Both the position numbers and the translations under genes were made by a program. Of a stretch of DNA of 42,574 bases, positions 3,946 to 36,876 are shown in pieces (within the stretch, counting starts at the first letter, position 1; the number at the start of each line of letters is the position of its first letter). The notes under the pieces were generated by a model that was not told the origin of the DNA, made no database searches, and saw nothing but the letters and a program-made list of their open reading frames with translations. The stretch spans positions 1 through 42,574 of the forward strand of contig JAJYUU010000019.1 in assembly GCA_021792405.1 (NCBI GenBank), read 5' to 3'. This DNA is from Actinomycetes bacterium (GTDB lineage: Bacteria; Actinomycetota; Actinomycetes; Streptosporangiales; Streptosporangiaceae).

Positions 3946-4910
3946 CTCGCCGTCCCCCTGGTGAAGACATGGTCGCGTGCCTGCATCCCGTCTGGCATCA
4001 GGTCCCGCCGGACCGCCGCAAGCACGGTATCGACCTCATCGGCTATCGCCTGCTCCTCCTGGGCGAGACTGACGGGATCAGCGCCGCCCTCGACCACCAC
4101 GCTCTCCCTGGTGATCAGCAGCGGGTCCCGATCACGCCGGCGGGCATCCCTGTCGCCGGCGGGCCGGTACATGTCGGGATCGCCCTCGTAATGACCTCTG
4201 AACCGATAGCACGTGGCTTCCAGAACCGCCGGGCCGAGACCGGACCTGGCGTAGTCGACGGCTTCGCCGAACGCCGAGGCCACGGCCAGTACGTCAAGCC
4301 CGTCAACTCGCTTGCCCCAGGCCCGGTAGGACACCGCGCGTTCGGCCAGCGTGGCCGTGGCGGTCGATTCCTCGAACGGGACGGAGATGGCCCACTCGTT
4401 GTTCTCGATGAGCACGACAAGCGGCAACCGCAACGAGCCCGCGATGTTCAGGCTTTCGTGGAAGCCGCCCGCGTTCGCGCCCCCATCGCCCGTCACCCCG
4501 ACTGCGACGCTGGCCCGGCCGCTCAGGCGCGCGGCGTAGGCATGGCCGAGGGCGACCGGCAGCGTGGATCCGACAATTCCGGTCGTCGAGAAACGGCGGG
4601 GCAGATCGAAGATGTGCATGTGCCCGCCGAAGCCCCCGCAGAGTCCGGTCCTCTTCTCGAAGATCTCCGCCATCAGCGGGTACATCGGCACGCCCTTCGC
4701 CAGCGCGTGCAGGTGATTACGATGCGTGCTGACCAGTGCATCCTCGTCCGTCAGGTAGCCGAGCAGGCCGGCCGCTATCGCTTCCTGCCCGATCCCCAGG
4801 TGTACCTCGCCGTGAATTTCCCGGTCCGCCACCCCCGCGAGGCAAGCCTCCTCAAAGCGTCGCATCCTGACCATCGCCAGGTACCGGTCGCGAAGCGTCA
4901 GAGTGCTCAC
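3942..4910 (-). CDS. 2-oxoacid/acetoin dehydrogenase E1 component, alpha subunit
   Basis: A 322-residue thiamine-diphosphate-binding subunit (AcoA/PdhA type). The cofactor motif is visible: GDGGANAG, then about 25 residues later ENNEWAIS, matching GDG-x(25-30)-N. Other family blocks are VHLGIGQEAIAAG near residue 37, STHRNHLHALAKG, and CGGFGGHMHIFD. The region around RFRGHYEGDP corresponds to the conserved part after the binding loop. It overlaps both neighbours by four bases, the VOC gene upstream and the beta subunit downstream. The natural substrate cannot be read from sequence; acetoin, pyruvate or branched 2-oxo acids are all used by relatives. Confidence 0.9.
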   Translation of the reverse strand: MSTLTLRDRYLAMVRMRRFEEACLAGVADREIHGEVHLGIGQEAIAAGLLGYLTDEDALVSTHRNHLHALAKGVPMYPLMAEIFEKRTGLCGGFGGHMHIFDLPRRFSTTGIVGSTLPVALGHAYAARLSGRASVAVGVTGDGGANAGGFHESLNIAGSLRLPLVVLIENNEWAISVPFEESTATATLAERAVSYRAWGKRVDGLDVLAVASAFGEAVDYARSGLGPAVLEATCYRFRGHYEGDPDMYRPAGDRDARRRDRDPLLITRESVVVEGGADPVSLAQEEQAIADEVDTVLAAVRRDLMPDGMQARDHVFTRGTAR

Positions 4911-5383
4911 GAAGCCTCGACCCCGGTCACCAGAGCACCCTGCCTCGGCTGTTCCTCCAGCTCGACGACCGTCCCGCTCGGTGACCAGCAGTAGACGGCA
5001 CGTCCCTCAGGGAACGTGACCACCTCTCCGATCGTGGACCCGCCCGCCGCGAGCAGCGCCGCCAGCGAGTCGTCGATGTTCTCGACCAGATAGCAGGCGT
5101 GGCCGATGCCCGGCCAAACCGGCATTCGCGAGTCAGTCCCGGCCGGCACCTCACTGAATTCGAGCAACTCGACAATCTGGCCGCTGAGCGGCGACCTGCA
5201 CTGCGCGAGCTTGCAGCGGACCCCGGAGATTCCGACCGTGCGCTCGATCAGGTCGGTCATATGCCGGTCCTCGAAGACGACCTCGAATCCCAGTGTCTGC
5301 TGGTAGAACCGCAGCGCTACGTCGAGGTCATCCACGACAAAACCTGAATGATGCCACGCCCATGCGTCGCTCGTGCCCGCCAT
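4907..5383 (-). CDS. VOC (glyoxalase/dioxygenase superfamily) protein
   Basis: 158 residues with two beta-alpha-beta-beta-beta modules of the vicinal oxygen chelate fold: WHHSGFVVDDLDVALRFYQ (first module, metal His in HHSGF), then ELLEF as a likely metal Glu, and GIGHACYLVENIDDSLAAL (second module, His in GHACY), ending in VVELEEQ. The HH-E-H-E pattern suggests a divalent-metal enzyme such as an epimerase, glyoxalase, lyase or ring-cleavage enzyme. It lies between the ABC permease gene and the E1 genes and overlaps the E1-alpha start by four bases, so it probably acts just before the thiamine-diphosphate step. The reaction is unknown. Confidence 0.8.
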   Translation of the reverse strand: MAGTSDAWAWHHSGFVVDDLDVALRFYQQTLGFEVVFEDRHMTDLIERTVGISGVRCKLAQCRSPLSGQIVELLEFSEVPAGTDSRMPVWPGIGHACYLVENIDDSLAALLAAGGSTIGEVVTFPEGRAVYCWSPSGTVVELEEQPRQGALVTGVEAS

Positions 5384-35265: not shown

Positions 35266-35712
35266 ATGCCCCTGATCGAGGTGACAGTCAAGATCCCGGA
35301 GGAGCGAGTCGGCGAGTTCTATGAACTGGTCGGGCGCTGGCTCGCCGGAGCACAGCTCGAAGCCGAGCCGCTTGACATGCCCGCCACAACACCGACCGAC
35401 TGGACGCAATCCGACGACGATCTCGCACTTGCCCGTGCGGTCTGGGGGAAGTTCAGCCCCCGCGCGCAAGCGTTCTTCGCTCTATTGATGGACCATGCGG
35501 GTCACAAGATGTCGGCCGAGAATCTGGCCGCGACGCTGGACATACCTCACGGCAAAGCCGGCGTCGCCGGTGTCCTCGCGTGGCCCGCGCGGCACTGTGC
35601 GGCGGTCAACAAGACCGTGCCCTGGCAGTGGGAGGAAGGGTCCGAGGGCGGTGGTGCGCTCTACTGGGTCGAGACCAAAGTAGCCATAGTGTTCAGGAAG
35701 GTCCGGAGCTGA
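35266..35712 (+). CDS. small winged-helix-like protein (resembles DUF6416)
   Basis: 148 residues. An N-terminal segment MPLIEVTVKIPEERVGEFYE is followed by a helical domain: ARAVWGKFSPRAQAFFALLM, HKMSAENLAATLDIPHGKAG and VAGVLAWPARHCAAVNKTVP, then WQWEEGSEGGGALYWVE, a pattern of a winged helix with a following wing. I recall this as DUF6416 of actinomycetes, function unknown. GGAAAGG precedes the ATG at 35266. It has its own promoter with an operator-like repeat, which suggests self-repression. It is the last plus-strand protein gene before the tRNA-like RNA. Confidence 0.72.
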   Translation: MPLIEVTVKIPEERVGEFYELVGRWLAGAQLEAEPLDMPATTPTDWTQSDDDLALARAVWGKFSPRAQAFFALLMDHAGHKMSAENLAATLDIPHGKAGVAGVLAWPARHCAAVNKTVPWQWEEGSEGGGALYWVETKVAIVFRKVRS

Positions 35713-35847
35713 CCCCCGACGATCTCACCGAGCCCGCGAGCGCTCAGAGCCCCTGCGCGGTCCCCCTGCGCCGGGGTTCTCTGCTGCCCGGCGTCGATGC
35801 GCCGTCTGCGCGCTCAGATTTGACTATGTGATACCTTGGATCCGCAG

Positions 35848-35977
35848 GTGGGAACCGGGTTCAGCCCTGCTGGTTCGCAGCCAGAGGTTCCACAGAGCGG
35901 GGAGATCTGGGTGCGAGTCCCGGCGGTCCGACGATCCATCGGACTGTAGCTCAAGAGCAGAGCGCCCGTTTTTCCTG
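35848..35977 (+). ncRNA. circularly permuted tRNA-like RNA with structured leader
   Basis: All cloverleaf stems can be drawn with normal lengths, but the 3' half comes first. The 3' half is GCGGG (35897-35901, anticodon stem), GAGAT (variable), CTGGG-TGCGAGT-CCCGG (35907-35923, T arm), CGGTCCG (35924-35930, acceptor) and A35931. After a 9-base linker from 35931 to 35939 comes the 5' half: CGGACTG (35940-35946, acceptor; seven pairs, one G-U), TA, GCTC-AAGAGCA-GAGC (35949-35963, D arm), G, then CCCGT (35965-35969), which pairs fully with GCGGG. U8, A14, A21, U54, C56 and A58 equivalents are present; U55 is G and the D loop lacks GG. Upstream, GTGGGAACC/GGTTCCAC (35848-35893) encloses two small hairpins. 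No CCA is encoded. Confidence 0.7.
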
Positions 35978-36010
35978 AGTGAAGCCACCCTGGACAGGGG
36001 TGGCTTCACT
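35978..36010. terminator. 13-bp hairpin shared by convergent units
   Basis: AGTGAAGCCACCC (35978-35990) pairs perfectly with GGGTGGCTTCACT (35998-36010) across a 7-base loop. It starts nine bases after the last base of the tRNA-like element and ends 11 bases before the stop of the convergent minus-strand gene, so it can terminate both. There is no T-tract after it on either strand; a run of five T lies before it on the plus strand. Confidence 0.75.
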
Positions 36011-36021
36011 GCGTATCGGGC

Positions 36022-36876
36022 TTATGACCGCTGGCTATGACGTGCGACCGCCGCTGATATCTCGCCCTCGGTTAGCTTCAGCGGCCCGTAGTGGCACCTC
36101 GCGAGGCCTTTTGCCCGGCGGATCGCGTCGGGTGCCCTGAGGGCGTTTGGCGCATCGGTAACAAGGTCTTCGACCAGCAGGTCAGCCCACAAATCGCGCG
36201 GCAGTGCAGGCGCCAGGAACCCGGTTGCTTCGCGGGCTAGGACCTTGGTGACCGCTAGCGCCATCAGCGCCTCGCTGCTCCCGAACGTGACAGGGTCCCT
36301 CAAGTCCAGCGCACGCGGTGAGCGCCCAGCGAGCTTCACCCAGCCTGATTCCGCGTCAGGCGGCCAGGTGGCCAGTCGGTTGACGAGCGACTGGTCCGCC
36401 CGGCCGCCGGAGTGGATCGTGCAGTTGCGCATGACCCGCAGGACATGTAGTTGCTCAAGACTTGCGGCATTGAACGACTGCCCGGTGGCCTGTTCGATCT
36501 CCCCGTGCTGCTCGTAGAGCTTCAGGTTGTCAGCCGGTTTCTTAAGTTTCTTCCCGTCGCGTTGCAGCAGGGTCAGACAGGTCTTGAGGTAGTCCTCATG
36601 GATGGCGAGCGCGTAGGCGACCGCCATCGCGCCGAGATGGGTGTCGCCGGCCGCAAGGATTCGCAGTGCGGCCTCGGGTTTCAGGCTGAACCGGCCGATG
36701 TGCGGGATCTGGGGGAAGATCTCCGGCAGGAGCCGGTCCGATCCCTCGGTGAGCTGCAGCATGTGAGCAGCCATCTGCGCGCCGGCCAGAAGCCCCATGA
36801 TGGCGTTGCTGGCCTCAACCCGCACTTGCTCGTACTGCCGGTACTCGGCGAACCGCACGATCTCCACGCCGGACAC
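36022..36876 (-). CDS. HEPN-motif protein (putative RNase)
   Basis: 284 residues, largely helical. The segment LHVLRVMRNCTIHSGGRADQ contains R150-N-x-x-x-H155, the RNxxxH/R-x4-6-H signature of HEPN domains, many of which are ribonucleases that cut RNA, including tRNA, in toxin-antitoxin and anti-phage systems. Helices before it (AMAVAYALAIHEDYLKTCLT, LLQRDGKKLKKPADNLKLYE) fit the four-helix HEPN bundle. The N-terminal ~60 residues and the C-terminus are unassigned. It converges on the tRNA-like RNA, sharing the hairpin at 35978-36010. HEPN is seen; RNase activity and target are inferred. Confidence 0.6.
   Translation of the reverse strand: MSGVEIVRFAEYRQYEQVRVEASNAIMGLLAGAQMAAHMLQLTEGSDRLLPEIFPQIPHIGRFSLKPEAALRILAAGDTHLGAMAVAYALAIHEDYLKTCLTLLQRDGKKLKKPADNLKLYEQHGEIEQATGQSFNAASLEQLHVLRVMRNCTIHSGGRADQSLVNRLATWPPDAESGWVKLAGRSPRALDLRDPVTFGSSEALMALAVTKVLAREATGFLAPALPRDLWADLLVEDLVTDAPNALRAPDAIRRAKGLARCHYGPLKLTEGEISAAVARHSQRS

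Follow-up and report, generated by a model that had tools for sequence, protein, structure and literature searches.

Permuted tRNA genes are known in Cyanidioschyzon and Thermofilum, and to our knowledge it is unsettled why bacterial Y RNAs imitate tRNA. One bacterial Y RNA structure (PDB 6CU1) is reported to coincide with that of tRNA after circular permutation, so the "permuted tRNA" shape was already known from that account (PMC11472068). RNAs of the YrlA class are reported to combine a basal stem for Rsr/Ro60 with a PNPase-binding tRNA-like domain, and Ro60 and PNPase are the partners of bacterial Y RNAs that this source describes (PMC8394870); the authors of another study suggest that the tRNA-like domain of YrlA could inhibit an anticodon nuclease (PMC7790460). 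AbiF is presented as a HEPN toxin held by its noncoding RNA, in a type III-like toxin-antitoxin arrangement (PMC12373285, PMC12737573). Here, we studied a locus in a 42,574-nt stretch of actinomycete DNA (the window, meaning the whole stretch that was analysed) in which a tRNA-like RNA with its halves in reverse order adjoins a gene for a protein of 284 aa.

A permuted tRNA-like core

An earlier note on this DNA had recognized a cloverleaf at 35897-35969 whose 3′ half precedes its 5′ half, and direct reading of these letters returns the same coordinates for every stem:

35897-35901 with 35965-35969, forward strand: anticodon-type stem, the 3′ strand of the tRNA coming first and the 5′ strand last; pairs G-U, C-G, G-C, G-C, G-C
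35907-35911 with 35919-35923, forward strand: T arm with the 7-nt loop TGCGAGT, read from the sequence, from the match to model R1 (below) and from relatives
35924-35930 with 35940-35946, forward strand: acceptor stem of 7 pairs, one of them G-U, closed as a hairpin
35931-35939, forward strand: permutation junction, 9 nt joining the acceptor strands; 35931 and 35939 could form an extra A-U pair
35949-35952 with 35960-35963, forward strand: D arm, preceded by TA, with the 7-nt loop AAGAGCA

The core lacks an anticodon loop and, on the transcript extent that we infer below, is the tRNA-like domain of a noncoding RNA of ~130 nt. Across the whole 42.6-kb window, ARAGORN predicted zero tRNA and zero tmRNA genes and Rfam returned no family at gathering level; tandem ordinary tRNA genes, an alternative that the earlier note had raised, are thus ruled out as the source here. 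These results (no tmRNA by ARAGORN, no Rfam match at gathering in the window) also speak against a permuted tmRNA, and a split tRNA gene or tmRNA was rejected on the same grounds together with the 4-nt acceptor insert of some relatives.

Energy folding of the full window RNA alone favours another fold (-61.0 kcal/mol, vs. -52.9 kcal/mol when the cloverleaf is imposed); for the core on its own, the predicted pair probabilities are 0.15-0.37 for the T arm and 0.35-0.36 for the D arm. The cloverleaf predicted for the window RNA is supported by comparative evidence, not by energy folding.

Resemblance to bacterial Y RNAs

In a lax Rfam scan of 401 bases, positions 35899-35967 align to RF02553 (YrlA) at 20.7 bits (E 0.057; gathering score 69), and four relatives of the RNA that also lie beside a HEPN-like gene (the pair is called the cassette below) score 28-37 bits, again under 69. 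A sub-gathering score does not by itself exclude YrlA, because RNAs adjacent to Ro60 genes in the same order likewise fall below that threshold (best 57.4). RF02553 and the Ro60 domain TROVE were each searched in 249 genomes of the order; RF02553 matches in 192 of the 249, a figure that is not a cassette count (9 of 14 controls matched too). Among the 30 RF02553 loci listed, 26 are followed on the same strand by a TROVE match, at a distance of ~0.6-1.5 kb. The YrlA-type RNAs of these 26 loci were cut to the tRNA-like core, aligned (A1), and used to build a covariance model (R1) that contains no window sequence. The covariation score of A1 is 0.570, compared with 0.185 when shuffled, and 14 of its 21 pairs change on both sides.

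With R1, the site at 35897-35969 scores 43.8 bits (E 3.3e-10 for the 42.6 kb searched, the E-values of this search being rough according to the search tool), with the next match in the window at 15.9 bits. By this model, the permuted tRNA-like module of the YrlA class (T arm, closed acceptor stem, and D arm) is present in the window RNA, whose acceptor hairpin is the same stem as in the Ro60-adjacent RNAs and which resembles YrlA in its terminal closing stem as well. Where the earlier note looked for precedents, the circularly permuted tRNA-like shape stands, and the bacterial Y RNAs (YrlA) were the precedent that it missed. Elsewhere in these searches, one locus (L053) carries two tandem YrlA-like RNAs, at 1520-1590 and 1667-1736, on a contig with no Ro60 match; the second is without the GG-N-TA motif discussed below.

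Linkage of the RNA to a HEPN-like gene

The earlier note had also passed over a partner, the HEPN-like gene that adjoins the RNA:

36022-36876, reverse strand: gene for the 284-aa protein, convergent with the RNA; predicted HEPN-like fold; motif R150 N151 x3 H155
35978-36010, between the convergent genes, no strand assigned: inverted repeat, recognized as a self-match and by hairpin folding, and possibly a shared terminator

In the window, 52 nt separate the RNA core from the 3′ end of this gene. Three actinobacterial plasmids carry relatives of the 284-aa protein, as do two genomes other than its own among 297 of the order; for each of these first five relatives, R1 matches just past the gene's 3′ end. 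A genome-contig scan for further relatives gave 20 loci, from Lentzea, Trebonia, Kribbella, Herbiconiux, Curtobacterium, Streptomyces, Allokutzneria, Actinokineospora, Crossiella, Amycolatopsis, Actinoplanes, Nonomuraea (this locus being one of the first five) and a Pseudonocardiaceae bin. With the three plasmids, G219, and the window, they make up a set of 25 loci, 23 of which have the RNA at the gene's 3′ end, with R1 scores of 26 to 59 bits. Elsewhere in those 209 kb the best R1 match reaches 27.2 bits (a second match in L077, at 5275-5326, left out of the RNA set) and the next 14.9 bits.

The two loci without the RNA, L070 and L087, are missing the C-terminal part of the protein too, the alignment extending only to residue 212 or 225; near 4600-4650 in both, other sequence follows where the gene end and the RNA are missing. 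In 19 loci measured, where the gene end is intact, the distance between the stop codon and the start of the RNA core is 1 to 65 nt, and the reading frame of the HEPN-like gene is broken in L081 and L088. RNA and gene are convergent in 20 loci and co-directional in three (L082-L084). L027 was left out as the same locus as L086, and L028 (partial gene), L081, and L088 were kept out of the protein alignments and the tree.

A protein profile search of 386 genomes of the phylum found a single match besides the window, in G744, which is from another class and has the RNA in place beside its HEPN-like gene (41.2 bits with R1, 61.4 with R2, a covariance model of the 23 cassette RNAs as aligned in A4). 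Counted from the gene, the RNA is thus present in 24 of 26 loci that carry the HEPN-like gene, a conserved linkage of protein gene and RNA gene such as is expected of type III toxin-antitoxin systems. In the opposite direction, R2 was searched in 394 genomes of the class; among the 30 loci listed, five carry the HEPN-like gene, namely the window and four new loci (L089, L091, L093, and L095), none identical to the training copies. In all, there are at least 28 cassettes, 24 found via the gene and four via the RNA search.

Among the same 30 loci, seven with clear TROVE frames are Ro60 Y RNAs, in a tally that counts only matches to true TROVE frames. A check for tRNAs covered 17 loci (L104, L105, L106, L109, and L110, which have no HEPN-like and no TROVE frame, lie outside it), and eight of these 17 proved to be two tandem tRNA-Asn genes. 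R2 matches in 290 of the 394 genomes, which is not a cassette count because tandem tRNA-Asn genes match R2. Such pairs (L100, L101, L103, L107, L108, L111, L116, and L117) give strong false permuted-tRNA matches and would mislead any count of permuted tRNA-like RNAs. In a separate case, a permuted Y-RNA-like element lies within a long tRNA gene array (L115, 1501-1577, reverse strand).

Covariation and the tRNA elbow

A4 is an alignment of 23 copies made without fitting. In it, 85.1% of cells are paired, both sides change in 12 of 21 pairs, and the covariation score of 0.204 (0.108 when shuffled) was reached by none of 500 shuffles. Pairing is poorer in two helices, the anticodon-type and the acceptor, with 73% of cells each, to which variation in acceptor length contributes, and further pair types occur no more than by shuffling (87 of 500 shuffles as high). 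The permuted tRNA-like RNA that the earlier note claimed for an actinomycete is real, and its stems covary among relatives. Rfam gave no match at gathering level in the eight cassette loci scanned.

The elbow contacts covary as well. Position 18-55 is G-U in 14 of 23 copies, A-G in eight (the window among them), and C-G in one, and position 19-56 is G-C in 20, with C-G, G-U, and C-A once each; all four new R2 loci are G-U at 18-55 with G-C at 19-56. On the protein tree (24 rows, with 9 of 21 inner branches open and three long rows), the switch between A-G and G-U at 18-55 takes four changes, at least three of them forced by starred branches. This recurrence marks the unusual loops of the window RNA as a recurring variant of the tRNA elbow, not as decay.

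The A18-G19 form of the window RNA also occurs in the D loops of a separate group of tRNA-like structures in ordinary order, in L006 (reverse strand, 1458-1529) and in L016, L017, L018, and L019 (~1494-1566), which score 37-49 bits with Rfam tRNA. Within a few nucleotides of their ends begins a conserved frame (ATG start; 485 aa within the reach of the loci), for which the four proteins scanned have no Pfam match, and these structures look like a tRNA-like mRNA leader. Plain DNA similarity gave no relatives of the RNA in plasmids or phages; short DNA-similar pieces in the order were set aside, by eye, as chance or as belonging to the separate tRNA-like leader family. Among viral contigs 54 stretches fit a search pattern, none of them a relative, and in phages there were none.

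If the locus were a permuted tRNA gene giving rise to a charged, two-piece tRNA, a cloverleaf with tRNA spacing and halves in reverse order would be expected, and the window RNA does share with the genes of Cyanidioschyzon and Thermofilum the placing of the 3′ half before the 5′ half. However, the acceptor insert is only 4 nt in five of 23 copies (L077, L079, L080, L084, and L088), which leaves these, unlike permuted tRNA genes, without any acceptor stem; the T loop does not start with TTC in 12 of 23; and the shape, with no anticodon loop in the core, is explained by the Y-RNA precedent. We give this reading almost no credence, and the short inserts leave the processing at the acceptor ends that the earlier note proposed unsupported.

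Transcript features and comparison with Ro60-adjacent RNAs

The core lies within a longer predicted transcript:

35832-35837, forward strand: TACCTT, probable -10 element of the RNA's own promoter
35844-35975, forward strand: putative extent of the noncoding RNA, from the -10 position and the U run; 5′ end ~7 nt past the -10 element, 3′ end in or after the U run
35851-35891, forward strand: 5′ domain in a constrained fold, with an outer stem GGAACC/GGUUCC, an inner hairpin, and P3
35870-35884, forward strand: hairpin P3, CUGG-UUCGCAG-CCAG, whose loop resembles an anticodon loop
35969-35973, forward strand: U run after the closing stem, the probable 3′ end

Of 23 convergent copies tested, 21 have a TANNNT box at a distance of 58-85 nt upstream of the core, an interval set after viewing the sequences. 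RNAalifold across the relatives supports P3 alone in the 5′ domain, with no support for the outer stem or the second hairpin. P3 with a 7-nt loop is present in 21 of 23 convergent copies, the exceptions being L073 and, because the script picked another hairpin there, L025. Position 6 of the loop is a purine in 18 of 21; the U at position 2 is not evidence because it was used as a filter. ARAGORN calls a tRNA-Ala in L024, L093, and L095 with P3 serving as the anticodon arm. The three copies on the same strand as the gene (L082-L084) have neither the 5′ domain nor P3.

The 3′ end and a stem motif separate the cassette RNAs from those next to Ro60 genes. A TTT within 7 nt past the closing stem is found in 21 of 27 cassette copies versus none of 26 Ro60-adjacent RNAs, whereas the motif GG-N-TA before the core, an empirical mark of the Ro60-adjacent RNAs in this order that was set after viewing the sequences, is found in 24 of 26 of these and in two of 27 cassette RNAs, and is absent from the window RNA (L120 was left out of these counts and of the promoter-box count). 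Cassette RNAs thus mostly lack the stem motif and have the U-run end, and the Ro60-adjacent RNAs are the reverse. No TROVE gene was found in the window's own genome (G000, a 98.4% complete draft), and of seven cassette genomes tested two have one and five, the window's own included, have none.

These comparisons bear on whether the RNA could be a normal YrlA Y RNA with Ro60 and PNPase as its partners, its HEPN-like neighbour being incidental. The shared tRNA-like module, found by a model built from Ro60-adjacent RNAs, agrees with that reading, as do the weak RF02553 alignment and the Ro60 gene in two of the seven genomes. We nevertheless consider it very unlikely, given the missing TROVE genes, the contrasting distribution of GG-N-TA, and the near-complete linkage to the HEPN-like gene. 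The window RNA is not a typical Ro60 RNA: unlike YrlA, it has a 5′ domain of its own, a HEPN-like gene as neighbour, and no detected Ro60 gene in its genome.

A predicted HEPN-like protein

The seven best structural matches to the 284-aa protein are all HEPN proteins: we take 5yep, 1ufb, 7bxo, Csm6, and HepS to be such, and 6m6w is one by its title. They come from a structural realignment of the AlphaFold2 model (pLDDT 92.4, pTM 0.87) to 978 chains, in which HepT-type chains reached Z 9.0, 8.9, 8.8, and 8.7, Csm6 7.9, and HepS 7.6 and 7.0, with others from 6.3; Z scores of 7-9 are modest for a helical protein, as are those under ~13 generally. Foldseek gave no significant match to the model (best E 0.86), NCBIfam nothing above cut-off (PA3715_dom, E 0.13), and a PDB sequence search three weak matches (best E 0.023). 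No Pfam family is shared among the 20 members aligned, the window protein has no Pfam match, and Abi_2 matches none of the 20.

The HEPN definition is given as Rx4-6H at the end of helix 3 with a polar residue after the R (PMC3710099). In the window protein, the motif R150 N151 x3 H155 stands at the end of a predicted helix (137-155), and RN-x3-H is found in 19 of 20 members, with R150 in 19 and N151 and H155 in all 20; the motif and its position agree with that definition. Ex3[KR] is found in 15 of 20. Together, motif and model give good but not final support for a HEPN-like protein. One member, from Kribbella albertanoniae (L073), has L at the position of the predicted catalytic R150, yet keeps the RNA.

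A HEPN-fold protein might bind RNA without nuclease action, the pair then regulating or modifying tRNA outside any toxin system. The loss of R150 in L073 and the several loci placed among metabolic genes fit such a role, but the near-invariant R150, N151, and H155 follow the Rx4-6H pattern described for active HEPN RNases (PMC3710099), and we regard it as improbable.

Among described systems, AbiF resembles the cassette in joining a HEPN protein with Rx4-6H to a linked noncoding RNA, as far as the accounts of it go; the cassette protein, in contrast, has no Abi_2 match in Pfam, and its RNA is a tRNA mimic, mostly convergent and preceded by a promoter-like box of its own. In fold, the 284-aa model resembles HepT of HepT-MntA and the prophage protein HepS (Z 9.0-7.0). 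The partner in HepT-MntA differs from that in the cassette, which is an RNA, and no nucleotidyltransferase occurs among the few neighbours annotated or scanned.

Genomic neighbourhood

Neighbouring genes were chosen by a codon-composition script, and 20 proteins were submitted to Pfam and 10 to PADLOC. They vary by locus (acyl-CoA oxidase, YchF GTPase, thiolase, glycosidases, and transporters among the 20 scanned), 11 of the 20 being of metabolic or transport type. Because the neighbours differ between loci, the RNA and the HEPN-like gene seem to form a stand-alone cassette; because they are mostly metabolic or transport genes, a defence role rests on few loci. Defence neighbours are PD-Lambda-5 and a D12 methylase in L077 and Pycsar in L023, and the window carries a type I restriction subunit and a resolvase. 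PADLOC had no match for four window proteins. The gene on the other side of the RNA is:

35266-35712, forward strand: DUF6416 protein, just upstream of the RNA

Relatives of this protein occur in two Herbiconiux plasmid records, in one of which the best R1 match is 11.8 bits.

A tRNA mimic that may restrain a HEPN RNase

With the architecture, the covariation, the linkage, the HEPN motif, and the predicted fold as described, the best explanation, which we judge somewhat probable, is a cassette of two parts, a HEPN RNase that acts on tRNA and an RNA mimic of tRNA that restrains it. The 284-aa protein would be the RNase and the RNA would be transcribed from its own promoter, binding the protein via the tRNA elbow and, in copies that have it, hairpin P3 with its likeness to an anticodon arm. 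Resembling tRNA yet resistant to cleavage, the RNA would keep the RNase off; were it lost, cut, or outcompeted, for instance during phage infection, the RNase would be freed and translation would stop. Blocking of the HEPN partner by an RNA in the guise of tRNA is favoured by analogy, from the precedent of AbiF and the anticodon-nuclease suggestion made for YrlA.

The same linkage and tRNA mimicry would also suit an RNA acting as a sensor or activating cofactor, which reports damage to tRNA-like RNA, or the tRNA-processing enzymes of a phage, and switches the RNase on, and the separate promoter-like box and convergent layout are compatible with either sign of regulation. The one HEPN-RNA pair to set beside it, AbiF, is however described as inhibitory (PMC12373285, PMC12737573), and we think activation unlikely.

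Restraint of the RNase by the RNA can be taken further, to a proposal that we offer tentatively and with less than even confidence: a HEPN toxin that cuts tRNA would be held by an RNA antitoxin, itself a rearranged copy of the substrate tRNA, with the elbow and anticodon arm kept and nothing left to charge or cut, and the Y RNAs of Ro60 would share ancestry with nuclease-blocking tRNA decoys. No description of the cassette was found in the literature searched, which included few subscription papers, and the pairing of RNA and protein, the RNA family, and the logic of the tRNA elbow appear to be new. With a Y-RNA-like mimic tied genetically to a HEPN-like protein, the idea of nuclease inhibition becomes directly testable in a two-gene system, and RNA-controlled HEPN systems would extend beyond AbiF to one in which the logic of the RNA can be read from its shape.
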